A stretch of 64,000 nucleotides of DNA. Source: Liolophura sinensis (lineage: Eukaryota; Mollusca; Polyplacophora; Chitonida; Chitonidae). The number at the start of each line of letters is the position of its first letter. The first letter of the stretch is position 1. The stretch spans positions 13,381,335 through 13,445,334 of the forward strand of contig NC_088297.1 of NCBI RefSeq assembly GCF_032854445.1, in the 5' to 3' direction. Of this stretch, positions 21,616 to 62,800 are shown piece by piece. The notes under the pieces are model-generated. The model worked only from the letters and a program-made list of their open reading frames with translations. It was not told the origin of the DNA and did not search any database. The translations under genes and the position numbers were made by a program.

Positions 21616-24600
21616 TTATCCTTTCAATCCAGGTTTCAAGCTGGCAAACAGCTTAGCTCCTTTCAAATGTGTGTGCATGTCAGTCATAAAATTGTTTACG
21701 TACGAGTCTTTCTCAGATTTCTTGGACTCAAAGATCACAACCAGTGCTATCCTCTGTTCCACTTTAATGATGAAGTAAGTGCTCTGGGCTGTCTGTAAAC
21801 ATAAGTGAATAATGCATGCATGTAAAATTATATGTTAACTATAATATTATTATATTATTACATGCAAGACATAAATTTGTACTGGAGGTCCTTCGTGTGA
21901 TGTTCACCTTAAAGCATACGATTAAGTTGTTAATAATTTCAAACTGTCTGCTGAATTAATCCTCACAGGAGGGGTGTATCACTTGGTGTCAGAAGTGGGA
22001 TATGATTCGGCATTGGTGCATTTCGATAGGCACCTTCCTCAAAATATATGTTCGCCACAAAATTACTGAAATACTGCTAATAGGATATTTAACCTCAATC
22101 ACTCAGTCAAGACATATGTTTAATTTGTTCTTCATCAGAGACGCCTTTGTCAGAGACTAGGTCAGATGACCTGATGGCGCCCCCTACATGACTCACCTTG
22201 TCATATATACAAACAGCTTTGTGAAAGGCTAAGTCAGCTGACCTGACAGCGCCCCCTACATGACTCACCTTGTCATATAAACAGATGGCTTTGTCAGAGG
22301 CTAGGTCAGCTGACCTGACAGCGCCCCCTACATGACTCACCTTGTCATATATACAGACGGCTTTGTCAGAAGCTAGGTCAGCTGATCTATCAGTCATCAT
22401 CATCACCACAGTAGGCCAGTGTTGGGCAGGCCTTTCCTAAAACACAGTAAGTCAGGGTATAAAACATCATCTGTTGATCCCTTGAAGCCAATTTTTACTT
22501 AAGTTAAAATTTTAGATATTATTTAAATGCTTATTTTTTAGACAATATAAGTTAAACATAAAATAATATGGGAACATTTAATGAGTTTTATGTTAAGAAA
22601 AATATACCAAAATGTCTGAATTATACTGATGTTATAAAATTTGACATTAGATGTCAAAGTAGAAAATTACAGTCACAGCTGATGACAATGTACACCTTTA
22701 AACATCAGTCAAAGTTGATGTCAAGGTTTGTACAAAACATGGGAAAATGTTCACGAAAAGTTCAAAGTTCACAAGTTCTAGTATACTAGAAGGTATACTA
22801 GTTCATTCAAGTACGTCAAGGTATACTAGTTCATTCAAGTACGTCAATGTAATAAATATCAATCAAAGTACATGTAAAGGTATAAATCATCAAGGTTCAT
22901 GTACACAGGTTGTTGTATGTTAGTCCAGGTCAGAGGACTCACACTAGGGTATGAAAAGATGGCAGGATAGCTTCCTAAGCCCTTGGGTAGCTCTGTCTGC
23001 TTGTGAGGGTGATGATAGCCAGGCCCTTTGTATGTGCTCTCTATACCCTGAATGTCCAGCACCAGGGACACGTTGGTCGCATCAGACTTCTTGTGGAAAG
23101 AAACAATCCTACAACAGGACATTCATTCAGGCAGGTAATCTGAAAGAATTTATTTCTTTATTTCGTAGGTGTTTTATGCTGTAGTCAAGAATATTTCACT
23201 TATACGACAGTGGCCAGCTTTATGGTGGGAGGAAACCGGGCAGTGCCCGAATAAACCCACGACCATCCGCAGGTGGCTGGCAGACCTTCCCACAAACGGC
23301 TGGAGAGGAAGCCAGCATGAGCTGGAGTTGAACTCACAGTGACCGCATTGGAGGGAGGCTCCTGGGTCATTATGCTGTGCTAGTGCACTAATCAACTGAG
23401 CCACGGAGGCCCCAACTGGAAGGATGGTTAGGGGAAGGATGTTCTAAAATTTCACCTAAACTCAACATTTTTAGAGGCAAATAAATGTCCTAAAAAAATT
23501 AGTTTTCGTGCTTAAACTATCCAGTAAGCAAGGGAAATTCAGGTCCAAGCTGAACAGCAGATCATAGTTTTCTAACAATGCATGAATTACCAATCTGCCC
23601 ACAAAATGTCACCACAGAGTCACAATGGCAAAAATGAACAAAACATCACAATGATTTAGCCAAGCCAGATATACTTTCATATGTTCCCATTATTATTTAC
23701 TCTGTACATTTTAAAGCAATGTGACCGTTATCAATAGTCTTCTGCTCTGGTGATAAGAGAAAAAAAAAAAAATTGAAAAATTTTATAACTCTAAATGAAG
23801 TGGTAACGCAGATATAGAGATATCGGTACAGCCAAAAAGTCAGATGGATGGACAGACGAATGTATGGATTCTATAACATGAATGCAAACCATAAGTTGAC
23901 CACTTATACCACTCATGGTTACATACATGTCCTGATGTGTACACTTACTTTGAAACAAAATCCTCAGTGGCCTTGGCAGTCAACCCCTTCATCTCCACTG
24001 TATTGCTCTGTTTCGCTAGAGTCTCGTAAAAGTACAAGGTAAACTGAAAATACAGCAAAAACACATGGATTCAAACTTGTAACACTGGTTTACCTTCCTC
24101 CTTAAGTCAGATACCTGGCTTGTGGGCAGTCATTTGCTCTGGAGGTACCCTAATTCTTCAACCATAAGAAAAAGCAATTTTCAGTGCAATTTATGCACAT
24201 TTTTATTTGATTTTGAAGACAAATCTACATTGCTTGGGTTTACCAATTTCAGGGCTTCACGAAAAAGCACAACTTTATCAGTCTACACAGAACAATGCCT
24301 TCAGCAAATTCTTGAATTAATACCTTACAAACATGTCAAAAAGTTGAAGAATTACAGTAGCTTGATTTCTTCCACCCATGTACCTGATCACAAAAGTGAG
24401 ATATTCCTGAGTGTTAAATCCAAATCAAACACCGGTAAACAAATTGACGCAGTTTGTATTTTGCCTTTGTGGCCTTGCTGGCTCAGATGGCTACAGCACT
24501 GACTCATTATGTAATATCAGGCCATTGACTAATGTGGGTGCTAGCTCAAATCTTATTATTTCAGCTGCAGCTTTCAGTCAAGTCAAAAGTACGTGGGAAG

Positions 24601-31165: not shown

Positions 31166-31171
31166 GGTTCT

Positions 31172-32252: not shown

Positions 32253-32266
32253 TAGACGCTGTATCT

Positions 32267-32276: not shown

Positions 32277-32368
32277 ATGTACAGTTACCTGCGACAGGTA
32301 GAAAGAGCTCGTAGTCGTAGGAAGTGACTTTTGAGATGACTTAAGTATCTGTGATCTTCACCAAGGAG

Positions 32369-35300
32369 ATGGGGATGTTAAGGACACTTAAGATTTTGGC
32401 TGTTTTGGCTATTTGTCAGATTGTCAGAGCGCAAAGATTTACATACACACATAAATTCAATGCAATTGTGGACATTCCAACTTACGGGAAAGTCGAAGGA
32501 TTCAGCGTTGGATCGTACTATCATGTTCATCCAGAAATCAGAATAAATCATTTTCTGGGTGTTCCTTATGCCAGACGTCCAACTCAGTTCAGTGATTACA
32601 GAACTGAGTTTCGTTTTAAGGTAAGTACAAACCGCGCAAAACACACGGGCAGCAAAACGATGTCACCTGTCCGTGTCAGGCCCTAAAAGCTAATTAAATT
32701 TATGTTTTGACATCAGTTTACTTGACAATTATGAATATGACATGAATTTAAGATCTAGAGAGTCTCAATTTGAAGTTTCCATGGAAACCCAATTTCTTGA
32801 AATCAAAATGGGGAAATCGACTCTCATCAAATCTTCTTGTGAATTAAAAGCAGTAATTAATATCTAGTCAGCAGGATCGCTCTGTTGTTTTCAAAATGAC
32901 AAAATGCCTGCTAGGTTAAGTTAAAACGCCCGCCATGGCATCCTTATATGTTAACCACATATGTGAACAAAAACAATTCCCTGATTAATCAGAAACAATG
33001 AGAGATGAAGAACGTGGACAGTTGTATGTGTACATTACATACTTTTTACTGCTGTTACATGATTATTGATAAGCATTGTCCATTAATTGTCAGCACAAAT
33101 ATAAATTCTCTTAGTAAATAAAGGCTTCTCTCTTCCCGGTTCCCTCTTGTGACTTTTTAGAAATATAAGTGTAAAAGCCCTGCTGAAAGACAATAAAAGA
33201 CACTAGCTAAAACATTATGGTGCTTTGCTTTACTTTTAAAAAAAGTGTGCGCAAAGAATTTATTTTACAATTGATTTTTTCATTTTTTTCTTTCTCACAG
33301 ACTTAATATATCAATTGAAACATTATAACATACAATGCAATGGCGTTGTTTTCATATCGCGACTTTATGATGCAAGTGTTGAAAGAACAGGTTCTGATCA
33401 TAGACAGAAAACAGCACATTAAGATCCTTTGAGAATGAGATCCTCATTCCAGTGAGAAGTCTGAATACCACTTGTGTAACAAATAGATTTGGATGTCTCT
33501 CTTGTTAAGAACTTTCCTTAGCATTACAAGAGCCATATATATAGACCTGTATGTCTACAATGTTTTGCAAAATGCGCAACATGGATACTTTTCTACCTCA
33601 CTGATCGTAAACTGTTTCCATACAAATTTGTGTCCATTTATATCGGGTAATTGAAAAAAATGTCATTTTGACTGAACTAGCTGGCGTTAATTATGGAAGC
33701 GGGCATTTTGACTTAACTAGCTGGCGTTAATTATGGAAGTGGGCATTTTGTCTACAAGTCATGTTGACCTACACTCGCTTCATTGGATATTCCACTTAAA
33801 AAATTACATTGAGGCAAGGGACTGATGCACTTGAATGATAGCAGGCAGCTCCAACAATAATATAAAGAAATGGGAGTGAGAGGTATAGGTGTTTTAGGGA
33901 TATCTCCCCGCACAGCCCCCCCACCCCCGCCCGCTTCCCGGTGCCCCAAATATTAACTTCTCACACTATAATATAAAGTGCATAAGTACCACATAAAGCA
34001 AAATAAAGAAACATGGATGGTTAAGATGACCTGTTACAGGTTTCCTTTCTCTTTCATCTTACATTGCGGTCGTGGATTTTAGACCAATCCACGTTAAGTT
34101 TACGCAGGATGTATCTCGTGCGCCTGTGGCACATTCACGACCCAAGATTGACAGTAGAGAATAAGAGCTAGGAAATGGGCCCTGTTTTTATATGAACTTA
34201 ATTAATGTGTGTTTTTCTTTACCTTGCAGAAACCGGAAAAGCCCTCCTGGACAGGTATTTGGGATGCGACGTACTACCGCCCAGCCTGCCCCCAGCATCC
34301 TTGGTACATGAGACAATACATCCCAAACTTCAGCAACTTCTCTGAGGACTGCCTCTACCTCAACATATATGCTCCAAATGTAAGTCCAGGGATCTGGTGC
34401 AAGTTTACCCCAAGGTTAAAAAGTTGTTTGATTCGGATAACAAGCTGTTAATTTGTTGATTTTGGATACTTAGATTTTTTTTTTTTCATTCCATTTTGAG
34501 ATGAATAAATTCTATGAGTAATGCATGTGAAATTTGAGATTATTGCTAAGAGAGATCCTGTCTACAGTCTTTAGTGTTCAAATGCAAGTTCACTTCTTTT
34601 AAATTTACCTCTCACAATTATTGGGTTTGCAAACAGGAAAAGAAAACAGTAACATTTAATGGTTATGCCTGAATTGAAAACATTCACACGTAAAATAAGG
34701 ATGAAGCTTATGATCTCAAACAAATGAATATCACAACACTGTCAGTTTCATTGTCTTGGAAAGTTAGGGAAGCAGTTGAGTCAATGGGTTACTGCTGATA
34801 GGCCAGATGAGCTCTCTAATGGTCTGGACAAATCAAATGGGCCCAAATATGCACAGAGCGAAAATGATTGACTCTATCAGGCTATCACAACGAAGATCGA
34901 AACTTGAATCAATATGATTGGTGAAAGACAGGGCATAATTGGAAACATAACCATCTTCACATGGTCCACTTTTATGAAGAAACTTTTGTTTTTCAAAAAG
35001 GGATTTTCTTTTGATTGCAAAAACCAGAATAGTACTATAATGAGTAGCTCTACCATATTATTGTGTTATTGGAACTCAAAAACGATAGAGTGACAATTAT
35101 ATTAGGCGTACATATGTTTGTGTATGTGAATTTAATGTTGTATGACATAAGGAAAAGATGGTGTCGAAGTAATTCCTTGCTTTCTTTATTTTTTTTCCCC
35201 AGGTGACAAGTGAAATTCCAAGTGCCAACCCCAACTTATACCCTGTGATGGTGTACATCCATGGAGGAGGGTACACAGTGGGATCAGGGCAGCTCTGGCC

Positions 35301-38300
35301 AGGACGCTGCTGGCTGAGAGAAAGGTTGTCGTGGTAACCATGAACTACAGGCTGAATGCCTTAGGTGAGTCATGTGTTGTGGTAATCATGAACTACAGGC
35401 TAAAGTGATTTTGTGAGTGTTCCATCCTGGTATTGATGAACTACAGGCTGAATGCCTTAGGTGAGTCATCTGTCATGGTAATCATGAGCTACAGGCTGAA
35501 TACCTTAGGTGAGTCATCAGTCGTGGTAATCATGAACTACCGGCTGAACATTAATGTATAAGTGAAACATTTTTTTTTTATTTATATTAATTATAGTTGA
35601 AATGCGTTTTATGCTGTACTCAAGAATGTTTCACTTACATGTATGCGACAGTGGCCAACCTTATTGTGCACAGGAGTGTTTGTAGGCATATAGTTTGTAT
35701 GGAGACACTAGATTGGATAAGTGGTAGATAAAAGTGCCTGTGTTAAGGAAACCCAAGAAGACAAATAATTAATATTACACAATATAGCACCTTATTTCTT
35801 CTGAATTTTGGGAACCTGGTTGGCTCATTTTAGTTAATATATATATAATTCTGGTAGGAATATTGAGTTTCTTTTTTCTCGCATGGTTTGATGATCTAAT
35901 GAACAAGATACTTATATCTTTACTTTGCCATTAGGCTGGTAAAGAAATATTCAACTTTCAACAATACTAATATCTGTCACAAAAGTTATAAGAATTGGTG
36001 TATGTGATTTGCTCTCAAAAGAGGGAAAAATATTACAAAATATCGTTTTGGTGATAAAACTTACATATTTCCAATTAGGATATACTGTAATTTTTCAAAC
36101 TTTTCATATGTTTGCAATGTGTTTATTCCAGCATATTCCGAAGGCATAATTGTATGTTGACTGATAAAATTATACTTTTTGTAAATCCCCTGAAACTTGC
36201 CAATCCAACCATGATGTTTTGTCTCCAAAATCAAAGTAAAAATTTGCATAAATTGCATAGGAGAAGAAGGTTGAGGAATCAGTTGTTGACTAATACGATT
36301 GTATTTTGTACGAAGCCCTTAAACTGGCCAATCCAACCGATGTAGTTTTGTCTCCAAAAATCAAGTAAAAATGTGCATAAATTTACTCTTTCATATGCGA
36401 AAATGTTGAGGAATTTGGATAATCCTACTTTCCAACCTTTATCATAACACCTGTCTAAGATCAATAGAACTCTCAGGATCAGTATGATAATCCTATTTTC
36501 CTAATGATGATCATAACACCTGTCTAAGTCAATGGAACTCTCAGGATCATTAGGATAGTCCTATTTTCCTAACGTTTATCATAACACCTGTCTAAAGTCA
36601 ATGGAACTCTCGGGATCATTAGGATGGTCCTATTTTCCTAACGTTTATCATAACACCTGTCTAAAGTCAATGGAACTCTCAGGATCATTAGGATAATCCT
36701 ATTTTCCTAATGATGATCATAACACCTGTCTAAAGTCAATGGAACTCTCAGGATCATTAGGATAGTCCTATTTTCCTAACGATTATCATAACACCTGTCT
36801 AAAGTCAGGGGAATTCTCAGGATCATTAAGATAATCCTATTTTCTAATGATGATCATAACACCTGTCTAAAGTCAATGGAACTCTCAGGATCATTAGGAT
36901 AATCCTATTTTCCTAATGATGATCATAACACCTGTCCTAAAGTCAATGGAAACTCTAAGGATCATTAGGATAGTCCTATTTTCCTAACGTTTATCATAAC
37001 ACCTGTCTAAAGTCAATGGAACTCTCGGGATCATTAGGATGGTCCTATTTTCCTAACGTTTATCATAACACCTGTCTAAGTCAATGGAACTCTCAGGATC
37101 ATAGGATAGTCCTATTTTCCTAATGATGATCATAACACCTGTCTAAAGTCAGGGGAACTCTCAGGATCAGTATGATAATCCTATTTTCCTAATGATGATC
37201 ATAACACCTGTCTAAAGTCAATGGAACTCTCGGGATCATTAGGATGGTCCTATTTTCCTTTCCTAACGTTTATCATAACACCTGTCTAAAGTCAATGGAA
37301 CTCTCAGGATCATTAGGATAATCCTATTTTCCTAATGATGATCATAACACCTGTCTAAAGTCAATGGAACTCTCAGGATCATTAGGATAGTCCTATTTTC
37401 CTGACGTTTATCATAACACCTGTCTAAAGTCAATGGAACTCTCAGGATCATTAGGATAATCCTATTTTCCTAATGATGATCATAACACCTGTCTAAAGTC
37501 AATGGAACTCTCAGGATCATTAGGATAGTCCTATTTTCCTAACGTTTTATCATAACACCTGTCTAAAGTCAATGGAACTCTCAGGATCATTAGGATAATC
37601 CTATTTTCCTAATGATGATCATAACACCTGTCTAAAGTCAATGGAACTCTCAGGATCATTAGGATAGTCCTATTTTCCTAATGATGATCATAACACCTGT
37701 CTAAAGTCAATGGAATTCTCAGGATCATTAGGATAATCCTATTTTCCTAATGATGATCATAACACCTGTCTAAAGTCAGTGGAACTCTCAGGATCATTAG
37801 GATAATCCTATTTTCCTAATGATGATCATAACACCTGTCTAAAATCAATGGAACTCTCAGGATCATTAGGATAGTCCTATTTTCCTAACGTTTATCATAA
37901 CACCTGTCTAAAGTCAATGGAACTCTCAGGATCATTAGGATAATCCTATTTCCTAATGATGATCATAACACCTGTCTAAAGTCAATGGAACTCTCAGGAT
38001 CATTAGGATAGTCCTATTTTCCTAACGTTTATCATAACACCTGTCTAAAGTCAATGGAACTCTCAGGATCAGTATGATAATCCTATTTTCCTAACGTTTA
38101 TCATAACACCTGTCTAAAGTCAATGGAACTCTCAGGATCAGTAGGATAATCCTAATCCTATTTTCCTAACGTTTATCATAACATCTGTCTAAAGTCAATG
38201 GAACTCTCAGGATCATTAGGATAGTCCTATTTTCCTAACGTTTATCATAACACCTGTCTAAAGTCAATGGAACTCTCAGGATCATTAGGATAGGTCCTAT

Positions 38301-41300
38301 TTTCCTAACGTTTATCATAACACCTGTCTCAAGTCAATGGAACTCTCAGGATCATTAGGATAATCCTATTTTCCTAATGATGATCATAACACCTGTCTAA
38401 AGTCAATGGAACTCTCAGGATCATTAGGATAGTCCTATTTTCCTAACGTTTATCATAACACCTGTCTAAAGTCAATGGAACTCTCAGGATCATTAGGATA
38501 GTCCTATTTTCCTAACGTTTATCATAACACCTGTCTAAAGTCAATGGAACTCTCAGGATCAGTAGGATAATCCTATTTTCCTAATGATGATCATAACACC
38601 TGTCTAAAGTCAATGGAACTCTCAGGATCAGTATGATAGTCCTATTTTCCTGACGTTTATCATAACACCTGTCTAAAATCAATGGAACTCTCAGGATCAT
38701 TAGGATAGTCCTATTTTCCTAACGTTTATCATAACACCAGTCTAAAGTCAATGGAACTCTCAGGATCATTAGGATAGTCCTATTTTCCTAACGTTTATCA
38801 TAACACCTGTCTAAAGTCAATGGAACTCTCAGGATCATTAGGATAATCCTATTTTCCTAACGTTTATCATAACACCTGTCTAAAGTCAATGGAACTCTCG
38901 GGATCATTAGGATGGTCCTATTTTCCTAACGTTTATCATAACACCTGTCTAAAGTCAATGGAACTCTCAGGATCATTAGGATAATCCTATTTTCCTAATG
39001 ATGATCATAACACCTGTCTAAAGTCAATGGAACTCTCAGGATCATTAGGATAGTCCTATTTTCCTTACGTTTATCATAACACCTGTCTAAAGTCAATGGA
39101 ACTCTCAGGATCAGTAGGATAATCCTATTTTCCTAACGTTTATCATAACACCTGTCTAAAGTCAATGGAACTCTCAGGATCATTAGGATAATCCTATTTT
39201 CCTAATGATGATCATAACACCTGTCTAAAGTCAGGGGAACTCTCAGGATCAGTAGGATAATCCTATTTTCCTAACGTTTATCATAACACCTGTCTAAAGT
39301 CAATAGAATTCTCAGGATCATTAGGATAATCCTATTTTCCTAATGATGATCATAACACCTGTCTAAAGTCAATGGAACTCTCAGGATCATTAGGATAATC
39401 CTATTTTCCTAATGATGATCATAACACCTGTCTAAAGTCAATGGAACTCTCAGGATCATTAGGATAGTCCTATTTTCCTAACGTTTATCATAACACCTGT
39501 CTAAAGTCAATGGAACTCTCAGGATCAGTAGGATAATCCTATTTTCCTAATGATGATCATAACACCTGTCTAAAGTCAATGGAACTCTCAGGATCATTAG
39601 GATAGTCCTATTTTCCTAACGTTTATCATAACACCTGTCTAAAGTCAATGGAACTCTCAGGATCATTAGGATAGTCCTATTTTCCTGACGTTTATCATAA
39701 CACCTGTCTAAAGTCAATGGAACTCTCAGGATCAGTAGGATAATCCTATTTTCCTAATGATGATCATAACACCTGTCTGAAGTCAATGGAACTCTTAGGA
39801 TCATTAGGATAGTCCTATTTTCCTAACGTTTATCATAACACCTGTCTAAAGTCAATGGAACTCTCAGGATCATTAGGATAATCCTATTTTCCTAACGTTT
39901 ATCATAACACCTGTCTAAAGTCAATGGAACTCTCAGGATCATTAGGATAATCCTATTTTCCTAATGATGATCATAACACCTGTCTAAAGTCAATGGAACT
40001 CTCAGGATCAGTAGGATAATCCTATTTTCCTAACGTTTATCATAACACCTGTCTAAAGTCAATGGAACTCTCAGGATCATTAGGATAATCCTATTTTCCT
40101 AATGATGATCATAACACCTGTCTAAAGTCAATGGAACTCTCAGGATCATTAGGATAGTCCTATTTTCCTAACGTTTATCATAACACCTGTCTAAAATCAA
40201 TGGAAGTCTCGGGATCATTAGGATGGTCCTATTTTCCTAACGTTTATCATAACACCTGTCTAAAGTCAGTGGAACTCTCAGGATCATTAGGAAAGTTCTA
40301 TTTTCCCAACCTTGATCATAACACCTGTCTAAGGTCAGTGGAACTCTCAAAATCATGGGAAATAAGCCCCTTAGTCATGGGCAGTATTGAAGGTCATTTA
40401 GCTCGCATTTATTTTGCCAGTGACTTTTATAACCTAGGACTCTCCTCCCCCTGTAGAACTCAGTGCTCTGTTATTTGTCATTATATGGCCCTCGTGACAG
40501 GACCAAGATGTCTCCATAGAACAAACTTCAGGTCACTCAGGGCCTTGAGAGGTCAATTGTTTGACAAACACAAAGTGTAAAGCATTGTAAATCAAGTCGT
40601 TTTGTGCTAGATAGGAAATGTAATGAAAACATCTTAAGGTTTCTTTTTTGTGCTCATTTAGTTCAGTTCAGAACTTGCATGAGTTTTTTTGTTGTTATAA
40701 AGCATAGTGTACTGTAATAATCAAAGGCAAAGACATATATATATATATATATCAGATGAAAGACCAGTAAACACTGTGACAGAAAATAGTTTGATTTCCT
40801 TTTTGATAAAAGAAAAAAAACATGAAACTAGAATAATTTTGACATTATTATTATGCTTTTGTCCGTGGCTCGGTTGGTTAGCGTACTAGCGCAGCGTAGT
40901 GACCCAGAAGCCTCTCACCAATGCGGTCATTGCGAGTTCATGTCCAGCTAATACTGGCTTCCTGTCCGGCCGTAAGGTCTTCCAGCAACCTGCGGATGAT
41001 TGTGGGTTTCCCCTGGGCTCTGCCCAGTTTCCTCCTACCATAATACTGGCCGCCGTCGTAGACGTGAAATATTCTTGAGTACTGCTTAAAACACCAATGA
41101 AATAAATAAATAAATTATTATGTTTTTGTGTAAATTGAAACCTGCTTATGGTCTTCTGTTAGAGGCTATTTGGTGTGTCAGTGGTCTAAGATATTTCACA
41201 GGAATTGGTGTATATCAGCCGCCCCTGTTATTCACTCTTATCTGCAACTGCTACCGACCACTGATTGACTGAAATTAAGAACGACTTTGTTCTGTTATTA

Positions 41301-44300
41301 CTTCCATTTAACCATAGAAACATGTATACATCATAACAAGAGTATAAATTTACACGTAGACCTGCGTTATAGGTATTACAACCTCTTTGGCGAAGCATTC
41401 ATAAACCACATGTAACATTCATGTTGACTTTATATATTTATCCTAACAACTTACAACATGAATGCAAAAATTGTACATTGACTCAAAGTTTTCTTAGTGA
41501 AGTTGTGCAAACATCGTCCAGTATCCAAAACAAATATTTAGTGTTCTTCATGCTAGAAACACTCAAAGAAGAAAAAATTCTTACCTTTCATAGACTTATG
41601 CACTTTGCTTGGACAATATTCAGTCTAATTGTATTATACATTGGATTTTCCTATTACATGCAGCATTGAACACCAGCAGGCCTAAAATCAGAGATGCATA
41701 CTTTGGAACATACCTGTGTCACGACTCGTGTCACAAAACTCCACCGGGGACAACACCATTTCAAAGTAGGGGGTTATCACAGGTGTTCAGGTCACAAATT
41801 CATTAACTCACATGACAACAAACTCATGCTAATTGCTTTACCCCTCTGCTTTGTGCGTGGGTATGGTCCATTCCATGACCACCTAGAGCGGCTGTTGACA
41901 GCAAACAAGAGACTGCAGTGAAATACGGGAGGAAGTTAGGCAATTTGCCCTGCGTTTGTGTCATTTTGTGTCAGATAAAAATGTAAAAGTTTAAAGTTGG
42001 TAAAATAGAATAGAAATAATGTTTTTTTTTCTTAGCAACCCTCATAGAATCACTCGGACCCTGGGATGCCTCATTCTAAAATTTCAACTCTTCCAGATTT
42101 AGTGGTGTAAACTCAACGACAATGACTCAATGATGGGTCATTATTTCCCAAATAAAACACGAAGAATTGCTCACTTGACAAAACGTCCGTGTAAGCAATC
42201 AAGTACGTCACATGTCATAAAGCACAAGGAGTGATCTCCCTTTATATAGAAAGGCTATAATTGCACAAAGGACTACTTGACCTTAACACCACCAATACAC
42301 TTGACTGCTGTCATACAAGGGAAAACTTATTGAGTACTGCAGCACTGGACACCAATGAAATGTGAACTGAAATATGTTCATGATATGCCTATTTTGTGGT
42401 ACTGTTGTTCTTGTTATATGGCGTAAAACACCCAATCAAGTAAATAAGTAAATATACCTATTTTATGTCGCTGTTGCAGGTTTCCTGAGTACCGGAGACC
42501 AGCACTCTGCCGGGAACTATGGAATGTGGGACCAGGTCGCCGCGCTGGAGTTCGTCAAGGACAACATTCGCTTTTTCCGCGGCAACCCTCACAGAATCAC
42601 TCTGGTTGGTCACAGCACAGGAGCGTCTAGCGTAGGACTTCACCTACTGTCCACGCGCTCTGGCAATACCTGTGAGTGTTAAACAACTTGCTGTCAGTCA
42701 TCGTTTTGTTTGGCGTAATCCGACAAACCCTAAAACAAAAAGATCCTGTAAGTTTTGATTGGGATTTAATTTTTTGAGGGGGAGGGGGGGATATTTTTTT
42801 GAAACATTCCCCTATAGGCATGATAGGGCTGCTTGTGAGTTTTTGTGATCAGAAAAACCTAAAAGCTGGCATGGTATCATTTAAAGGCATGTATGTGTTC
42901 TTGAAATTGCATTTTTACTGGCCAAAATGAACTAATTTGAGGGGCCTCTGTGGCTCAATTGGTTAGCGTGCTAGCACAGTGTAATGACCCAGGAGCCTCT
43001 TACCAATGCGGTCGCTGTGAGTTCAAGTTCAGCTCATGCTGGCTTCCTCTCCGGCCTTACGTGGGAGGGACTGGTAGCAACCTGCGGATGGTCGTGGGTT
43101 CCCCTAGGCTCTGCCCGGTTTCCTCCCACCAGTATGCTGGCAGCCGTCATATAAGTGAAATATTCTTGAGTACAGCGTAAAGCACCAATCAAATAAATAA
43201 ATAACTAATTTGATGTAATTTAACTAGGATTTGCTCTTGTTTTTCTCTTTCTAGATAACCCAATGTTCCAACAAGCCATCATGATGAGTGGCTCTGACTT
43301 AAGCGAATGGGCCATTGTCGACCCTATTTGGCATGCTCATGAATATGCAAAACAGCTAGGTTATCTGATTGGTTGCCCAACAGCGGATAATTACCAGCTT
43401 GTGCGGTGTTTGCGGATGTCCCGTACAGCGGACGAGATTGTCAATGCCTCAATAAGGGTCGAGGTCAAGGTATGATAGTTTCACTTTTAATTTTGCTTGT
43501 TAAGTAGCACCTTGAAAGTAAACATACATTGGGACTGGGGGCCTCCGTGGCCTGGTAGTTAGGGTGCTATCACTGCACAAGGACCCAGGAGTTTCTCACC
43601 AATGTGATTGCTGTGAGTTCAAGAACAGCTCATTCTGGCTTCCTGTCTGGCAACCTAAGGATGGTTGGGGGTTCCCAGAACTCTCTCTGGTTTCCTTCGA
43701 CATGTACCATTATGCTGACTGTTGTCATATAAGTGATATATGGCGTAAAAAACAATGAAGCATTGAGTTGGGCCAGGTTCTCTGCTCTGCAGTTTAGAAG
43801 CTTGTTGGCAGTCATTTAAAGTGTTGCACTCAATCCTTGCCTTAGCTGCTACATTAAGTGAGGAAAATCTCTTGATGGCTTCCTCTCCAGCCTGGGAACG
43901 TCTGCCAGCAACCTGGGGATGGTTGTGGGTTTCCGCCGGACTCTGCCCGGTTTTCTCCCACCGTAATGCTGGCTACTGTAGTATAGGTGAAATATTCTTG
44001 AGTATATTCTTTAATCCAATAAACAAATACCTACAATATAGGCAGTATGTCCTCTGAGCTCTGTCCAGTTTCGCCCACCCATAAATCAGACCCTCTTGAG
44101 CACATCATCAAACCCCAGGCATATAGATCAGTCAGTAAATCCTGTGATAGGTCTATCAAAATTTGTTTACCATAAATACACCAGTGTGCTTTGCATTCAT
44201 GTATAATTTGCAAGGTCATCTTGGCCATAAGTATTCTGCAAAAACAGCTGTATGTGTGTAAATGACGCACCACCATCATAATAGCCTGCCTATGGACTCA

Positions 44301-47300: not shown

Positions 47301-50270
47301 GTCTCAAGGGTTGCTGGTTCAAATGCCCAGTTGGTGAGCCCCGTCATTCCACTCTTTTACACATGGCACTCTGGTTTCCAAGGGCCATCCTGGTTTCCAA
47401 GGGCCACCCTGGTTTCCTAGGGTCACCCTGGTTTCCAAGAGCCCTCTGGTTTCTACAGGGCACTCTGCTTTCCACCAGGTAGTCTGGTTTCCACTAGGCA
47501 ATCTGGTTTCCTAGGGATACTCTGGTTTCTTATGGCCACTTCACAGGCCACCCTGGTTTCTACAGGGCACTCTGCTTTCCACCAGGCACTGTGCTTTCCA
47601 CTAGGCAATCTGTTTTCTTAGGGCCACTCTGATTTTGATAGGGCCCTCTGGTTTCTACCAACCAAATATTTTATTTATTGGATTGGTGTTTTACTCCGTA
47701 CTCAAGAGTATTTCACTTCTGAGCAAATATTGAGTAACACACAAAACCCCAGTGATTCGAATGAAATCATATAGAGGTTTTACCACTCATGAAGACAACA
47801 TATACTCTCTGTCCTCAGCTGATGTCAGATTACATGTTTGGTGCTGGTGTCAATGAAGTACTACAGCTACATGCGGACAAAAACAAAACATTCTATTACG
47901 TCTTTGATTACAAGTCCTACAATGATTACCTGCCACCGTGGAGAGGTAAGTGTTAGCTGAAAAAGGTGTGCTTTACACCTGTATACCAGTTTAAACAGTG
48001 ATTAGTACTACAGTGGCTAATCCTGAAAACTGTTAATTAAAGACTGGATATACAATATTGCATAATGTTTCAAACTTGATTGCAATAATTTTATTCAGGT
48101 GTTTGAAATAAGCTGTTTGTTATTTCTTTACTTCATGAATGGACTGAAAAATTGATGGATTTTTTATTTAAAGTGTTTTGTTTTGTGAAAAGGCTTGTAA
48201 AAAGTCTTAAAAGTATTGGTTTGCTGTAAAATCATTACATCACGTAAACAAAGTGTGTGTCCTTCATCCTTTTATTTATTGTTTTTACTCATCTGCACTT
48301 CAGTATTGGAAAAAACTGCATGTGCCAACTTAAAACACCATCGATACGAAAAAGAAAAAGCGTTAATCATACCACAATTATGGTAGCTCTGTTTGTAAGC
48401 AGATTTGTCTCCCCTTTCGTAGGTGTTGCTCATGGGCAGGAGTTACAGTACCTCTTCGGTTTCCCGTTCTTCAACGAGACGTACATCAAGCTGACAGGGA
48501 TTTATCCCCGACAGAGATATTCCTATGGAGACACTAACTGTAGCGAGTTTATGATGAACATGTTCACTAATTTCACAAATCTTGGGTAAGTAAAAGTCTA
48601 TTGTGATGCTAAAACTTACATTTTTTCATTCCACCAACCTCACCTGCCCTCACTAACCCCCCCCCCCCCCCCTCCTCAAAAAAACTGTGGTTGGTTGGAG
48701 TTGTCAGATATGTTTAGTTCAATCCCAGCATCAGACTGCCAGGTTTTGTTTTTACCAACAGGCTTTGACAGAAATTAAAAGAGAAGTCAATGCTTATAGG
48801 TCATTTAAGGCCACCTTAAATAAAGTTTGTTTTCACAAACAACACTTGATATATAACACACAATGTATAAAGAGCAGCGTTTCGCTTAACGCTTTATCTC
48901 GTCTTTTCTCTGTTCACAGAAATCCCACGCCGCGAATTTATGACCGGTACGAGTTTTACAACACCACATGGATGCAGTACAATCTACGCAACCATTCCAC
49001 CTTCTTGATCAGGAATATGTCCACGTCCTTAAACCATCTCAACTACCGGCAACAGAACTATGCCTTCTGGCTCAAGTACTACCCCAGTCTGGCAGGCCTC
49101 AGCGATAGTATGTATGATGTTAGGAATGAAGTCTCACTTTTGGGGATCTTAATATGGTGACAACAGGTTTCTACACAGTTTCCTCCCACCCTAGTACGTT
49201 GTAAAACATCGATCAAATAAACGATGTCAAGAAGTGACCGGAGATGCCCATGTGGCAGTTTATCCAGTTAAACTTGTGTTGAAGGCCACTGGTCTTCCAT
49301 GAATATCGCATGCATATTTTTATGCCACAGTTGGAAAAGTTTGTGAATAACTTTCCAAAGGTCCTATTGTTTTCACCATGCCCTCGTATACCCGTAAAAC
49401 AGACCGTCATCTTACAAGTGAACCATTTTTAAGTATGTCTCCTTGCACTCATTGAGCCTAAATATTATTATTTCACAAAGCCTTAACACATACGGGCCAC
49501 GAATCATCAGTAGGCTGAATACATTGACCATCATCATTTGTCCCGTTACAGTCACAAAGCCTAAATACATGTTCATGGATTACTCATGATTAGAACTGGC
49601 CTCATAGCCACTCTTCATTATTTGTCTCATTACAGTCACTCATCATTATTATTTGTCTCATTACAGCCACCAAGCCTAAATACATTGACAAGGTATCATT
49701 CTCATTACAGCCACTCATCATTATTTGTCTCATTACAGTCACTCCTCATCATTTTTTGTCTCATTAGTCACCAAGCCTAAATACAAGGTTTCATTCTCAT
49801 TACAGCCATTCATCATTATTTGTTTCATATTCGGCACTCATCATTATTTTTCTCACAACGGTCGCAGAGCCTAAGTATGTAGACTATTAATCACAATTCT
49901 TTTTTTTATGGCCATTGCTCATTAATTGTCTCATCATCATTATTTGTCTCATCAGTCACTGAGCCTAAATATGTGGATCAGTCATCATCATCATTTGTCC
50001 CATTACAATCATTCATCATCATTTTATTTGTCTCATTACAGTCAGTTGTCGTCATAAGTTGTCTCATTACAGTCTCTAACCATCATCATTTCTCTCATTA
50101 CAGTCACAGAGCCAAAGTTTGTGGACCAGTCCTCCTCTACCCAGTTCCACACGGCCACGTGGTCACTAACAGCGGGTGTCGGTCTCCTCCTCATCATCAT
50201 AGCTGTTCTTGTCATCGGGTTTTATTGCCACGGGAAAAGGAACTCTGACCACTTCAGTAGCACCTGCTGA
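32369..50270 (+). CDS. type I membrane carboxylesterase, cholinesterase/neuroligin-like
   Basis: Eleven exons: 32369-32620, 34230-34379, 35203-35364, 42480-42671, 43255-43469, 44915-45080, 45727-45905, 47819-47945, 48423-48585, 48920-49107 and 50104-50270, about 653 residues. Exon 1 starts with a signal peptide (LKILAVLAICQIVRA). Alpha/beta-hydrolase hallmarks follow: FLGVPYA, SEDCLYLNIY, oxyanion loop HGGGY, nucleophile motif GHSTGA (Ser codon 42614-42616), acid in AADDGSWF (Asp at 45062-45064, where cholinesterases have Glu) and His in GVAHGQE (48431-48433). The triad therefore looks intact, unlike neuroligins and gliotactin, which lose the Ser. The last exon encodes one transmembrane span (VGLLLIIIAVLVIGFYC) and a tail of about 15 residues, without the long PDZ-binding tail of neuroligins. 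Exon 3 is one base short of the phase its neighbours require: a 1-nt loss lies between HGGGY and LAERKVVVV. It is either an assembly error or a broken allele. Intron 3 (7.1 kb) is mostly a 69-bp minisatellite. Confidence 0.9.
33655..33745. repeat. 47-bp tandem duplication
   Basis: Two adjacent near-identical copies of a unit containing actagctggcgttaattatg and gcattttg, in esterase intron 1. Confidence 0.7.
35330..35555 (+). repeat. 48-bp exon-edge tandem repeat with three donors (esterase exon 3)
   Basis: The end of exon 3 and its donor (aactacaggctgaatgccttag|gtgagt) recur: intact donors end at 35364, 35460 and 35508, that is 96 (2 x 48) and 48 bp apart, with a degraded copy between the first two and a donor-less one after the last. 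The unit is 16 codons, but reading on from the first donor meets a TGA in the degraded copy, so downstream donors would not give a full protein. Confidence 0.85.
35577..35668 (-). mobile_element. SINE family A, 3' fragment
   Basis: Minus-oriented tail with gcgttttatgctgtactcaa, gaatgtttcactta and cagtggccaaccttattgtg. The rest is absent. Confidence 0.6.
36088..36290. mobile_element. MITE family C, copy
   Basis: Opens with ctgtaatttttcaaactttt and closes with agaaggttgaggaatcag, the inverted ends of this family. It contains the shared words gtgtttattccagcatattc, ccaatccaacca and gtctccaaaatcaaagtaaa. It lies in esterase intron 3. Confidence 0.75.
36290..36425. mobile_element. MITE family C, partial copy in tandem
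   Basis: A second copy lacking its first third abuts the previous one, with ccaatccaaccgatgtagtt, gtctccaaaaatcaagtaaa and a closing gttgaggaatt. The partial tandem arrangement suggests unequal exchange or insertion near an earlier copy. The 69-bp minisatellite starts right after it. Confidence 0.65.
36420..40355. repeat. 69-bp minisatellite, ~57 copies, in esterase intron 3
   Basis: A 3.9-kb array of a 69-bp unit containing taacacctgtctaaagtcaa, tggaactctcaggatcatta and ggata(a/g)tcctattttcctaa. Two main subtypes alternate irregularly: one ends tgatgatca, the other cgtttatca. In the first, gatcattagga and its reverse complement are separated by a short loop, so units can form hairpins; ggataatcc inside is itself a palindrome. 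Copies are mostly more than 95 percent alike by eye, so the array is recent or homogenised. Terminal copies on both sides are more diverged. No coding role is seen. Confidence 0.95.
40861..41116 (+). mobile_element. SINE family A, full length
   Basis: Complete plus copy. The head has the A-box region ggctcggttggttagcg and a B-box-like gagttcatgtcc; the core has cctgcggatgattgtgggtt; the tail ends ttaaaacaccaatgaaataa followed by ataaataaat. Confidence 0.88.
42034..42062 (+). pseudogene. short copy of an esterase exon 4 segment behind an acceptor-like tract
   Basis: The text gcaaccctcatagaatcact occurs 440 bp upstream of exon 4, whose own version reads gcaaccctcacagaatcact. The copy follows a poly-T stretch ending cttag, which looks like a splice acceptor. 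Only about 22 bp match, so this is either a decayed partial duplication or coincidence. Confidence 0.45.
42300..42455 (+). mobile_element. SINE family A tail fragments
   Basis: Two short degraded 3' ends: ttattgagtactgcagcact with caccaatgaaat at about 42325-42362, and tatggcgtaaaacacccaat plus aagtaaataagtaaata at 42417-42455. They directly precede esterase exon 4. Confidence 0.5.
42941..43202 (+). mobile_element. SINE family A, full length with 11-bp TSD
   Basis: The best reference copy. It is flanked by exact direct repeats aactaatttga (42930-42940 and 43203-43213). The head begins ggggcctctgtggctcaatt with A-box ggctcaattggttagcg and B-box-like gagttcaagttc. A conserved core follows (cctgcggatggtcgtgggtt) and the tail ends agcaccaatcaaataaataa. 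It is a Pol III-type tRNA-derived SINE in esterase intron 4, only 42 bp before exon 5. Confidence 0.95.
43538..43755 (+). mobile_element. SINE family A, full length but diverged
   Basis: The head starts gggggcctccgtggcctggt, with a B-box-like gagttcaagaac. The core lacks a block between gtctgg and caacc, and the tail tatggcgtaaaaaacaatga is shortened. Confidence 0.8.
43870..44035 (+). mobile_element. SINE family A, 3' half
   Basis: Runs from gatggcttcctctccagcct through caacctggggatggttgtgg to gaaatattcttgagtatatt. The head is missing. Confidence 0.75.
45346..45525 (-). mobile_element. SINE family A, internally deleted
   Basis: A minus copy with both ends present (ggtgttttacactgtactca to caactgagccacagaggccc) but lacking the segment between the core and the B-box region. 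Confidence 0.8.
45538..45650. mobile_element. MITE family C, partial
   Basis: The distal half only: agggcttcacaaaaagtatg, agtctacacagaataatgcc, gcttgaataaacaccttgca and the terminal ggttgaagaattacagta. It abuts a SINE in esterase intron 6. Confidence 0.7.
46150..46770. repeat. 52-bp tandem array, ~11 copies, in esterase intron 7
   Basis: The unit is tttcccattaagtggttgta, cgtttggcccagcttgtttt, aggtgggttatg, repeated with high identity. It bears no likeness to esterase exon 7. Confidence 0.93.
46845..47145 (-). repeat. dispersed repeat D, copy 2
   Basis: The reverse complement of this segment aligns with 26830-27195: gttttacagtgatgtcatag, gagcctatcatcagcgcact, ggtcacgtgact, agtaatcagaacgtctggcc and the cag-tttca block. 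It keeps the GTCACGTGAC palindrome (47076-47085). It is located in esterase intron 7. Confidence 0.7.
47370..47660. repeat. ~19-bp tandem array (ggtttcc...)
   Basis: About fourteen imperfect units of the type ggtttccaagggccaccct, increasingly diverged toward 47660, in esterase intron 7. Confidence 0.8.
47671..47720 (-). mobile_element. SINE family A, tail fragment
   Basis: Only ttattggattggtgttttac, tccgtactcaagagtattt and cacttct remain of a minus-oriented copy. Confidence 0.6.
49165..49225 (+). mobile_element. SINE family A, tail fragment
   Basis: Remnants cagtttcctcccaccctagt and gtaaaacatcgatcaaataa, just after the esterase exon 10 donor. Confidence 0.5.
49500..50110 (+). repeat. repeated splice-acceptor segments upstream of the last esterase exon
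   Basis: The last exon begins after ttctctcattacag with tcacagagccaaagtttgtg. In the 600 bp upstream, about a dozen degraded copies of this acceptor-plus-exon-start occur, such as tgtctcattacagccaccaa, gcctaaatac and, best preserved, tcatcagtcactgagcctaa with atatgtggatcagtc near 49950-49983. Spacing is irregular (about 30-75 bp). Many keep a usable pyrimidine-rich YAG. Confidence 0.8.
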
Positions 50271-50440
50271 TTACAGTATCATCATCGTTCTTGTCATCAG
50301 GTTTTATTGCCGCGGGAAGAGGAACTTCTACCACTTCAGTAGCACCTGCTGATCACAGTATCATCATCATCATCATCGCTGTTGTCATCAAGTTTTATTG
50401 CCGCAGGAAGAGGAACCTCTTCAGAAGCTCATACTGATCA
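50180..50440 (+). repeat. triplicated 3' end of the last esterase exon
   Basis: The segment encoding the membrane span's end, the short tail and the stop is present three times (periods 82 and 91 bp): gtcatcgggttttattgcca, gtcatcaggttttattgccg and gtcatcaagttttattgccg. Each is followed by cgggaa-like basic codons, acttcagtagcacctgctga (or cttcagaagctcatactga) and a stop. Only the first copy is in the reading frame; the others would lie in the 3' UTR. Confidence 0.85.
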
Positions 50441-54545: not shown

Positions 54546-54561
54546 CAAATACCACAACTAT

Positions 54562-56309: not shown

Positions 56310-56760
56310 ACTTACAAAATCCTCAAGTTTTCAAGCAACTGTTGCCAGATCAGCAAATCTTCAAGCTTTCAAGCAGCTGCAGTCACCTTAGAAATCCTAG
56401 AGTTTTCAAGCCACGGCAGCCACCTCAGAAATCCTCAAGGTATCAAGCAACTGCAGTCACTTCAGAAATCCTCAAGTTATCAAGCAACTGCATTCATCTC
56501 AGAAATCCTCAAGTTTTCATTTTAAATCAACTGCAGCCAGCTCAGTAATCCTCAAGTTTTCAAACAAATGCAGTCAGTTCAGGAATCACAAAGCATCAAG
56601 CAACTGCTTGCAAACTGCAAGGTTTCCAGCAACTGCAGCCACTTTTACAGAAAACCCTGAAGTTTTCAAGCAACTGCAGTAGCTTATAAAATCCTTAACT
56701 TTTTGTGCAACTGTAGTCACTTCAAAAATCTTCAAGGTACATATATCAAGCAATTGTAGT
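56310..56760. repeat. ~36-bp tandem array downstream of RFC1
   Basis: About twelve diverged units of the type tttcaagcaactgcagtcac plus ctcagaaatcctcaag. It lies just past the RFC1 stop codon and so probably in its 3' UTR or flank. Confidence 0.75.
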
Positions 56761-56870
56761 CAGCTCAAACATTCTCATTTTCGATAACTGCTCACTCGAT
56801 ACAGCACTCACAACCCACGGCTGAGGACAATGTTATGTAGTCAATATACAGAATCTTGTGTGCACTGTTA

Positions 56871-59800
56871 TCAGCTTTTGCTCTTCCCTTTGCCCTTGCC
56901 CCGACCTTTGCCCTTTGACTCGCTGGCCTGTTTTCCCTTTGTGCTTCCCCCTCCTGCTGCATTCTTACCACCTGCAGATTTTTTCATCTGAAAAGTTATC
57001 AGCAGAAACGAGGGCTAAATAACAATAACATATATTCATTTTTATATTAAGCACTGCATATCTCTGGACACTGCATATCTCATTTAATACAACCCATTTT
57101 CAACAATGATCAAAAATGAACAGAAAGATAAAAATCATGATAACCCAGTCTTGTTACAGAAATGAACAACAAAAGGAGTAAAGTAGTTTTGGTACAGGTA
57201 GGTAGTTGGCGTACAGATAGGTAGTTTCAGTCGGCTTTTCACTAATAATTAACGCTTTTCTTTTCTCCACCTTTAATCATGTTCAAGTTTAACAGTCTCA
57301 CCTTGATCATCCCATCTTCAAGGTCATTATCCTCCTCTTCCTCTTCTTCCATCGCCTTGGTTTCCTCACCCTCTTCGCCTAGCAACCCAGACTCATCAGC
57401 CCCACCCCCTCTTCCTTTTTTTTTCTTCGTCCCGCCTCCAAGTGAGTATGGCGTGAGATGACTTTCCTTGTTGTAAGCCCGCGTGAAAGATGCTTTGGTC
57501 TGAAATAAAGCCAGCCTTGTTAATAACTATCCAAATCATGTTCGAAACAGTCCAAAAAAGGGGCCAAGAAGTCACAATGTGTCAGGTTCCTGAAAATTTC
57601 ACACAAGTAACAGGCTTCGTACGCTTTTCCTTCCTCAAAATTCAAGGGCTTTTTGACCAAGTGACTTCAGAATTAGACACAAAGTTATATGGCCTCAGAG
57701 GTTGCTGGTTCAAAACCCAGACTGGTGCAGCATTAGAATCTGTTCTGTTGCTCTGTATCCAGAAAGTGTTATCTTCAGTATGGAGGATAATAATGAGAAC
57801 TAGACTTACTTTTGAACTTAGGTTTGAGAATGGATCAGAACTATTCGGCCACTTAGAGACCTCCATGACATTGTCAAAGTCTTCCTTGATGATGTTGTAG
57901 CTGTCCATCATTTCTATCACATCCTTCACACCATCATTTTCTCTCTCCACCAGGGGATCTGTTAGAGATTTCCTCATAAAAGGGAGGTAATCCAAATTCA
58001 AGCCTCTCTTGTCGGAAGAAATGCTTAGTAGACAAAAACAGTTTTAAAATTATACATGTATACATTACATATTAAGCAATAAAGGTTATGATAAATGACT
58101 TAAAATCATGCCTACAAATTTAATCATTGTAGGAAAAAAATGTAATAAAAACTTTCGGCGCTGAATCTTTTCCCATTAGGACGTCATCCTACCATTTGTA
58201 GTTTAGAAGTTTTAATCCTTCGATTTAGGAGTGTCTTGGAGTGAGTGCATGGGTTTAACCTTATACTTAACAATTTATCAGTCATATGACGACAAAGGAA
58301 TCCCTAGAGTGCATATAATGCACCTCCTTGTTACAGGACGCATTTCCATTGCTCTTGTATCTAGTGCTGCTTCACTGAGACGCCTTACCAAAGGCAGGTA
58401 AGTCGCGTCGCCCAAGCCATTATATTATATTGATGCGGGTCAAACAGTTGTTGCACCATCCCCTTCATGCTGAACGCCAAGCGACGAAGTTACAACTTCC
58501 TCTTTTAAGATCTTAGGTGTGACCCGACCCAGGATTGACCCTGGATCTAGTGCTCCTAAAGCGGGTGCTCTACCAACTGTGCTATTGAGGCCGGCGGAGT
58601 GTCTTGGAAGTACGGACAGTGGACCAAAGAAATCGCACAAAGTGTGCATATTTCTCATGGTCATATTTCTTACATGTGCGGCTCTCTAAGCTTAATTTAC
58701 ACACCTGCCACCACTAGACAAGACTGGGCGACATATGTAGGATTGCTTGGGCACAGCCTCACCACTGGAGTCCTCACGCGAAACTGCTTTATCAACAACC
58801 TTACTCTAGACCACTGACACACTTACTGTAGACCACTGACACACTTACTGTAGACCACTGACACACTTACTGTAGACTCATGTGAGTATGAAGCTCCTGT
58901 AAAATTCTGTCATTTTTATTCTGCGTGGAATTTTTCCCGAGCCAGCTGGGGAAGGCAATCATCTGTGAGATACCACCTCTCATCTCTTCTCCAGGAATCA
59001 CACTAGCAAAGATCGCCTGGCAATAAAACAATGCTACTTCAGCACATGCAAATCAGTAAACAACATCCAACATTGTCCCACCATATTACCTCCCTTGAGG
59101 GCACTCTCCAATATTAATTTTTGAGCATGTTGTGGTACGGTAGGGTTTGTAGAAAATGGCTAAAAAAATATTGTTGAGTTTTGAAAGCTAAAGTGTTAAA
59201 AGTTGAGGACCAACTTTCTGATTGGTTTATTGATTTGAATGCTATTTAATACCAGGAATTTTCAGTTGTGTTTTTCAACTCGTTGTGTCCGGAGTAATCC
59301 ATGGCTCTGACTGCAGTTACTGATAAGCTTGCACACGAACATTGCTCTTTCATGTGCGAAAAGCTTGAGGAATTAGGGTAGCATAACTTAATCATTTGAA
59401 TGAGAACTTCACAGGTCTCGTGATGCAGTAGGACTGTTTTTACCTTCAATGACAAAAGATTGATTTGATTTGATTGTTGTTTTACGCCGTACTCAAGAAT
59501 ATTTCACTTATGCGACGGCGGCCAGCATTATGGTAGGTGGAAACCGGGCAGAGCCCGGGGGAAACCCACAGCCATCCAAGGTTGCTGGCAGACCTTCCCA
59601 CGCACGGCCGGAGAGGAAGCCAGCATAAGCTGGTCTTGAACCCACAGCGACCGCATTGGTGAGAGGCTTCTGGGTCACTATGCTGCACTAGCACGCTAAT
59701 CGACTGAGCCACGGAGGACCCAATGACAAAAGAGGTTCAAACACCAGACTCCCTTAGTGTCACCAAGGAAAGCTCCTTAATATTAACACATTATGCACTC

Positions 59801-62800
59801 TACCATAGTTTCTTTATTAGTTTTGTACCTACCTCCATGGGAAGCAGACCCCACTTGGATTGAGAGCGTATTTTCTTCTCAATCAAGTCACCGTTACAAA
59901 TGCTGTCTGCTGCCTTGGCAAGCTGTGACAGATGCCGTATATTGCTGCCCCTGAAACACAAAAGAGAACAGATAGATCTCTTCTTATCTCTGAACAATTA
60001 TTCCATTATGTCAAATTTGCACGAACTGTTTCTCATGCAAACAGTAAGCCTGCAAATGAGTGGCTGGACATGGACATTGTCTGGCTGATGTTCGTCTCAA
60101 GTGTTTTGATGCCGATCAATTTATCTGGTAGAAATTTAGAGATTCATATAAAGAGGAGATACTCAGTTGTGTAACTGTCTCTATCTACTCCTGATCACAT
60201 TTTCATGGGCTTATTTCGATATTCAGTTCTGTGTAACTGTCTCTATCTACTCCTGATCATATTTTCATGGGCTTATTTCGATATTCAGTTCTGTGCAACT
60301 GTCTATCTACTCCAGATCACATTTTCGTGGGCTTACTTCGATATTCAGTTCTGTGCAACTGTCTCTATCTACTCCTGATCACATTTTCATGGGCTTATTT
60401 CGATATTCAGTTCTGTGCAACTGTCTATCTACTCCTGATCACATTTTCGTGGGCTTATTTCGATATTCAGTTCTGTGCAACTGTCTCTATCTACTCCTGA
60501 TCACATTTTCATGGGCTTACTTTGATATTCAGTTCTGTGCAACTGTCTCTATCTACTCCTGATCACATTTTCATGGGCTTACTTCGATATTCAGCTCTGT
60601 GCAACTGTCTCTATCCACTCCTGATCATATTTTCATGGGCTAATTTCAATACAAGAACATTCAAATGTCAGTAGTATCGTTTTATTGATGTTTCTCAGTG
60701 CAAGATAGCATGCAGTAAACAGCTCTGGCCATTACAGCATTATACATGGTCCAAATTCCGTTAGCTAGCCACTGCACACCCACACGTTACTTGGGCTCTA
60801 AACAATAAAACTGCTGTCAAACACGAATCAAATAAATAAATAGATAACAATAAAATGGGTCTTATCAAGCACAGACGGTGTCTTGGCTTCCATTCATTGT
60901 CCTAGTAGAATGCAGTGTTTAATGCAGCTAAAAACAAAACAGGGTTAAAACACAGTTAACCTGAGTGTGTGGAAGTGACATCATAGATGGCGCTGTTGTC
61001 CACCAGCAGCTGTCCCCACATTATGTGTGCTCAGTCAGTCAGTGGTAAGATTTAGCCATGTCGCATTGGCGCAATATTGTGAAAGTGTCAAATCAGCAGA
61101 ATCATATGAATTTCCCCTTCAGAGCAGAACTGAGAATATTATTCCACCGGGAAGAAAAACGTAAGGCAAGAAATCTACTGAAGCGAATACCTTATTATAC
61201 ATTTCTACTGTTTTGTCTATTTGCGGTCTGCATTTATTATCTCCCTGAAAAAAATTTTCGGCACAACATTATAAATATTAGGCATGAAGTGATTGGTGCC
61301 TGACACATTGTCAGATAGTTACATGTAGTTAACACTATGAATTTACAGTTCACAATCTTACCTGGTTAAGTATGATCTTACATGGATGTGGTTCTCAACC
61401 TCATTTAACTGAGTACGGTGTAACAAGGATGTAATTCCCAATCTCACTCAACTGAGTACGGTGTAACAAGGATGTAATTCCCAATCTCACTTAACTGAGT
61501 ATGGTCCATCATGGATGTAGCTCTCAATCTCACTTAAATGAGTATGGTGTAACATGAATGTAGTTCTCAATCTTGCATGGCTGAGTATGGTGTAACATGG
61601 ATGTAGTTCTCAATCTTATTTTAACTGAGTATGATGTAACATGTACATAGTTCTCAAACTTACGGGGCTGAGTATGGTGTATCATGGATGTTGTTATAAA
61701 CATTACCTGAGGGAGTATGTATTTAGTTGTCAATATCACCAGGGTAAGTATGGTGAAACATGTACGTTGTTATCAACATTATCTGGGTGAGTATGGTGTA
61801 GCATGTATGTAGTTCTCAATCTTACCTGGGTGAGTATGGTGTAGCATGTATTTAGTTATCAACATTACCTGGGTGAGTATGGTGTAACATAGATTTAGTT
61901 CTCAAAACTTACCTGGCCGAGTATGTTGTAACATGGATGTAGTTCTCAATCTTACCTTGCTGAGTATGGTGTAACATGGATGTAGTTCTCAATCTTACCT
62001 TGCTGAGTATGGTGTAACATGGATGTAGTTCTCAAACTTACTTGGCTGAGTATGGTGTAACATGGATGTAGTTCTCAATGTTACCTGGCTAAGTATGGTG
62101 TAACATGGATGTAGTTCTCAATCTTACCTTGCTGAGTATGATGTAACATGGATGTAGTTCTCAAACTTACTTGGCTGAGTATGGTGTAACATGGATGTAG
62201 TTCTCAATCTTACCTTGCTGAGTATGGTGTAACATGGATGTAGTTCTCAATGTTACCTGGCTGAGTATGGTGTAACATGGATGTAGTTCTCAATGTTACC
62301 TGGCTGAGTATGGTGTAACATGGATGTAGTTCTCAAACTTACCTGGCTGAGTATGGTGTAACATGGATGTAGTTCTCATGAACAAACAATGGTGCGATGC
62401 TGTAATCGTTGAAGAAAAGATCTGACTTGTCTATTAGGGTCATCTTTGACGTCTCCTCTCCGCCCACAAACACCTTCCGACAAACATCAAATGGTCCCTG
62501 GAGGGAAAACAAACCAGCAAGGAGATTCTGAGGTAACATGCAAACAGCACCTCAATCCTGTCTCCATCGCTAATTTTTTGAAAAGATGTAAAATTTCTAA
62601 TAGGTGCAATGTTTCCCACACACCTCTGAAGCCCAGTTTTTGGGGGTGAATAAAACCACCACTCTTTGATAGATTCTGATGAACATCTGGAATTAAAGCA
62701 GCAACCAATCTCGCCAGGACTGGATTGTAGCTTGCCTCCTTATTGATCAATACACTGCGTCAATAAGCTGAGTTCTGCAAGTTCATGTGGATATGGGTGA

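Follow-up and report, generated by a model that had tools for sequence, protein, structure and literature searches.

Mirages in a mollusc: tandem arrays spanning exon-intron junctions in the chiton Liolophura sinensis

Why should the edge of an exon, together with its splice site, be repeated in tandem in several unrelated genes of one short region? This question is raised by a stretch of 64,000 bp of the chiton Liolophura sinensis (C3, 13381335-13445334; hereafter the window, meaning the whole stretch analysed), which belongs to a single assembly of 609,464,459 bp in 632 contigs. The window carries KICS2 and RFC1 on the minus strand and a carboxylesterase gene on the plus strand, identified by PDB and Pfam matches (in Pfam to RFC1, C12orf66_like and COesterase), and all three have minisatellite-like arrays at exon edges. 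The arrays are mirages, a phenomenon already known and here recorded from a new taxon, and we consider it likely that they come from blind tandem duplication across existing splice junctions, tolerated by the genes.

The exon-edge arrays in the window are confirmed. Using Tandem Repeats Finder (TRF) and the sequence itself, we found all the arrays of the original prediction in their places, at four donors (one in KICS2, one in the esterase and two in RFC1) and one acceptor (that of the last esterase exon), with units that hold the exon edge, and TRF and unit registration reproduced the differing periods of 22, 43, 48 and 72 bp and the irregular array. When units are aligned on the donor, the last exon bases and the start of the intron are present in each unit of the donor arrays: AAG/GTGAGTCAT in KICS2, TTAG/GTGAGTCA in the esterase, and CAG/GTAAGTTT and CTACA/GTAAGTGT in RFC1 (the slash marks the junction). 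The KICS2 array (22139..22385, minus strand; 72 bp, 3.4 copies; donor AAG/GTGAGTCATG) repeats the 3' edge of an exon at 22341..22436 (minus strand), which is placed by alignment to KICSTOR subunit 2 and by Pfam C12orf66_like; approximately 45-54 bp of its unit are exonic, and the array is an open frame throughout (open reading frame (ORF) 22110-22436). The esterase donor array (35327..35548, plus strand; 48 bp, 4.6 copies; donor TTAG/GTGAGTCAT) repeats the 3' edge of the COesterase-matching exon at 35203..35364 (plus strand), and here a stop is met in the second copy (ORF 35214-35405). In RFC1, the larger array (61347..62378, minus strand; 43 bp, approximately 24 copies; donor CAG/GTAAGTTT) repeats the 3' edge of the exon encoding GPFDVCRK...PYSA (62343..62519, minus strand), and the smaller one (58800..58877, minus strand; 22 bp, 3.5 copies; donor CTACA/GTAAGTGT), with approximately 7 exonic bp per unit, repeats that of the exon encoding AIFASVIPG...HMSL (58871..59017, minus strand); both exons were placed by alignment to human RFC1 (6vvo).

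The esterase acceptor array (49547..50106, plus strand; TRF and a junction-copy scan) is irregular. Its repeated element joins intron end and exon start, CTCATTACAG/TCAC..GCC.AA.T, and six junction-like copies at approximately 49553-49957, upstream of the true one, have 29-34 of 45 bases identical, compared with a maximum of 25/45 elsewhere on the plus strand of the window. The exon whose 5' edge is repeated (50104..50270, plus strand) encodes a membrane anchor and the stop codon in a model without homology support. Straddling the stop codon of this model is an 82-bp array (50205..50368, plus strand; 2.0 copies, TRF) of approximately 66 coding bp and 3' untranslated region, i.e. a coding-edge array without a splice site that adds to those predicted originally.

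Which of the near-identical copies serves as the exon edge was addressed by assembling exons manually, joined at the exon-side donors, and comparing the products with homologues. The joined RFC1 protein aligns to human RFC1 (6vvo) over 230 residues with a single 2-residue gap after HMSLQ; at this point the query lacked the opening residues of the following exon, which makes the test of the 22-bp junction less exact. The joined KICS2 product matches chains of KICSTOR subunit 2 as well as a close relative, the junction being free of any insert, and the COesterase match of the esterase is continuous across its donor junction. Given that the joined products of all three genes match their homologues, homology supports splicing from the exon-side copy, and the remaining copies would presumably not be spliced. 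Many inner copies retain a donor-like GTAAG, and in diverged RFC1 copies the inner donors have decayed. Copies 1-11 of the 43-bp RFC1 array share at least 93% identity with the exon copy, and most later copies are lower; this fall of identity with distance from the exon is absent in the esterase array, and we do not claim it as a property of the arrays.

The pattern is widespread in the genome. Outside the window we drew on 20 random 10-kb loci and on loci from a search for AAA domains, and three further edge arrays were found, at a ZMIZ donor (L022) and a PLBD donor (L028), both identified by Pfam, and at a VCP acceptor (L050), where the exon was positioned with the human sequence. Exact repeats of the donor motif CAGGTAAGT at 22-52 bp spacing form 390 pairs compared with 230 for the reversed motif, which are pair counts and not a rate. 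Flanks were read for donor-motif arrays only, namely 14 on C1 and the first on C2, and in 7 of these 15 the coding frame stops exactly at the first donor. Three of the seven are confirmed, POLR3A by PDB, and a GH31 and an EGF exon by Pfam. The others we take to be DERA-like (L036), ARFGEF-like (L037), SELENOO-like (L038) and polycystin-like (L031); neither Pfam nor PDB gave a match for L036 and L037, nor did Pfam for L031 and the 20-residue edge of L038, and L031, with a GC donor, is the least certain of these four. L040 is possibly one further junction array. By eye no exon was recognised at the array edge in L029, L030, L032, L034, L039, L041 and L043, the L034 array beginning approximately 200 bp downstream of a candidate exon. 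Counts of CAGGTAAGT (3 against 0 reversed in the random loci, 3 against 1 in the window) and of MAGGTRAGT (8 against 7, and 10 against 3, respectively) are too small to give a rate.

The original prediction knew of no name for this pattern; the literature has one, as similar arrays in amphioxus are called mirages (PMC3087553 and PMC3902484). Amphioxus mirages have been described in Adh3, in the globin genes BflGb6 and BflGb9, and in TnC and PGBD5, the last two being lancelet cases added in PMC3902484, with units of 10-72 bp in Adh3 and of 150-160 bp in the globins. They share with the chiton arrays a minisatellite-like unit that spans an exon-intron boundary, an occurrence at donors and acceptors of unrelated genes, and many copies that retain the AG/GT signals. 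In the chiton, the unit spans the boundary in the five window arrays and at the ZMIZ, PLBD, VCP, POLR3A, GH31 and EGF exons, and acceptors (esterase and VCP) are affected besides donors. The chiton arrays differ in their mollusc host, in reaching approximately 24 copies and in being known from the sequence of one assembly alone, whereas for amphioxus length and somatic instability together with seemingly undisturbed regular splicing are described, and mirages have been proposed as a route to intron gain (PMC3087553). Tandem genomic duplication of AGGT, a route to intron gain reviewed in PMC3443670, likewise leaves two splice-site-like copies in a gene; in that process, however, an exonic segment is duplicated and the intron is new, whereas the chiton units join the exon end and the intron start of one existing junction, and we therefore rejected this process as the source of the arrays. 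From ordinary intronic minisatellites in the window and in the random loci, which have similar periods and copy numbers, the junction arrays are set apart solely by the exon edge contained in one of their ends.

How such arrays arise is suggested by their geometry. Among 13 donor arrays (the four in the window, ZMIZ, PLBD and the seven CAGGTAAGT arrays) the exonic fraction of the unit ranges from 0.12 to 0.92 with a mean of 0.53, so that the junction can lie anywhere in the unit, and the distribution does not depart from uniform (Kolmogorov-Smirnov P 0.85 when base periods were chosen manually; P 0.27 with automatic periods, some of which are doubled). Periods are divisible by three in 5 of the 13, which is chance level, and the idea of reading-frame selection on periods was dropped. 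At the VCP acceptor array, with a period of 225 bp, the upstream copy carries AA in place of the AG of the true acceptor, which is what an unmaintained spare site should look like. The ZMIZ donor array is interrupted by SINE-like sequence (L022:3088-3680), and is therefore probably older than this insertion. In the 20 random loci, 52 arrays with a period of at least 10 bp span 24,798 of 200,000 bp (12.4%).

We suggest that (i) the endpoints of a duplication would by chance flank an existing splice junction, the splice site itself being without influence, (ii) duplications inside coding sequence would mostly be purged, whereas those spanning a junction would survive, since a single copy next to the exon (at donors the first, at acceptors the last) keeps the exon edge with its splice site as it was while the other copies turn into intron, and (iii) the arrays would afterwards expand to minisatellites, homogenise and decay as other minisatellites do, with purifying selection on the gene preserving the exon-side copy. 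The mutational process may be slippage, unequal exchange or template switching, and the neutrality of the arrays is likewise something that we infer. An array-rich genome, uniform breakpoints, the decay of spare sites and an array interrupted by a SINE-like sequence together fit blind duplication followed by tolerance, as does the finding that donors, acceptors and a stop codon are all straddled. The part of the original prediction that this genome duplicates freely in tandem and tolerates units carrying spare sites thus agrees with the array load, the breakpoints and the outside sample described next.

Whether chance overlap suffices to account for the number of junction arrays was a caveat of the original prediction, and we modelled it by blind placement. 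In the window, 24 arrays with a period of at least 15 bp were placed at random in 4000 simulations against 53 junctions from hand-made gene models, several of whose exon bounds are approximate; an array could enter a coding exon only at a junction edge and by less than one unit. The simulations gave 1.2 edge arrays on average, compared with 5 observed (P 0.007 for at least 5, 0.032 for at least 4). These P values are post hoc, as the window had been singled out for its exon-edge pattern. A modest true excess over blind placement may nevertheless exist. The window excess speaks against purely blind placement, as do the 8 edge arrays in window and outside sample together compared with approximately 3.0 expected, of which the window part is selected, and the 14 C1 arrays with CAGGTAAGT compared with 9 for the reversed control, which reflect our own grouping of listed places and are not a rate. 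The outside sample consisted of ten loci (L004, L007, L009, L014, L022, L028 and L050-L053; 86,456 bp, 56 junctions, 31 arrays), and in these, with approximate exon bounds, 1.8 edge arrays were expected and 3 seen (P 0.26). The window excess thus stood only as a post hoc result and did not repeat outside, and we dropped junction enrichment as an established property. In the remaining 16 random loci no exon was placed; Pfam was run on pieces of 7 of the 20 (L009, L014, L015, L022, L024, L027 and L028), and the rest were judged by codon score and by eye. L001, L002 and L008 gave no boundable exon, and L003, L005 and L006 are contained in L051, L050 and L053, respectively. TRF output for parts of L001-L008 was known before L050-L053 were taken in, the VCP acceptor array not being among it. 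An array in L007 covers what we take to be a katanin-like coding end and its donor; the 5' edge lies outside the piece, and the array was therefore not counted. The unit registers of KICS2 and L038, the KICS2 exon in the placement test and the acceptor register are one base off, which leaves the counts unaffected.

These results bear on whether duplication is driven by the splice junction or its transcription, through R-loops, U1-bound nascent RNA or a pause at the donor. The window excess, the prevalence of donors (4 of 5 edge arrays in the window and 2 of 3 outside) and the position of 7 of the 15 tandem CAGGTAAGT arrays at coding exon ends would be explained by such a process, but it would not account for the lack of a significant excess outside the window, for a junction that has no preferred spot in the unit, or for acceptors and a stop codon, the latter without any splice site, being straddled too. 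We therefore regard this proposal, which the original prediction had put forward, as unsupported and unlikely. A stronger version, in which junction arrays lie severalfold above blind expectation genome-wide since transcribed junctions are duplication-prone, appears doubtful to us; if it were true, mirages would have evolved repeatedly and independently as a state of genomes rich in minisatellites, and would offer a standing supply of spare splice sites for the evolution of introns and exon edges.

Alternatively, selection could keep spare splice sites, either as a safeguard for splicing or as a source of alternative isoforms. The donor-like GTAAG of many inner copies and the KICS2 array, with a period divisible by three and a fully open frame, are what this would predict, yet the esterase has its stop already in the second copy, periods show no preference for multiples of three, inner donors decay in diverged RFC1 copies, the spare VCP acceptor is AA, and use of inner copies would add residues that aligned relatives of RFC1 and KICS2 do not have. 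The original idea that duplications carrying spare sites are favored likewise finds no backing in the outside sample, in the placement of the junction within units or in the stop-codon array, and we judge selection of this kind to be very unlikely. Finally, the copies could be false products of assembly. Tandem arrays are difficult to assemble, and one amphioxus mirage was apparently misassembled in a draft (PMC3087553); the chiton assembly, however, was made from PacBio HiFi reads (PMC11068029), copies inside an array differ from one another, the ZMIZ array contains a SINE-like insert, and the pattern is repeated at unrelated loci, making an artefact highly improbable.

Favoring blind duplication and tolerance, we extend mirages to a mollusc, after finding them in print only for amphioxus; our literature searches, few of which were aimed at molluscs or chitons and which left subscription journals mostly outside, returned no report of mirages in molluscs. 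The data suggest that mirages result where tandem duplication is heavy and are not a speciality of cephalochordates. Of the 56 junctions in the small outside sample, 3 have an edge array; should the frequency be of this order throughout, the genome would supply many natural cases for studying how the spliceosome chooses among near-identical donors and whether arrays seed new introns.

Several other features of these sequences were observed. A 69-bp array of approximately 57 copies (36413-40356) occupies much of one esterase intron. In L052 (4221-7411) an AFG3L2-like exon is flanked by two arrays that come near its junctions without reaching them: one of approximately 71 copies of 45 bp, which stops 160 bp ahead of the exon, and one that begins approximately 37 bp behind it. 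In L013 a 174-bp doublet occurs three times at a spacing of 2,728 bp, suggesting a larger tandem unit. One SINE family of tRNA-derived appearance has several copies in the window (e.g. at approximately 59500-59720 and 42940-43200) and in several sampled loci. Just downstream of KICS2, ORFs at approximately 20430-21300 (minus strand) resemble a HARBI1-type transposase fragment, and a gene at approximately 6.6-13.5 kb of the window (plus strand) is presumably metabotropic-glutamate-receptor-like. In the random 10-kb locus L011 long ORFs crowd both strands, and we take it to be a virus-like or Maverick-type element.

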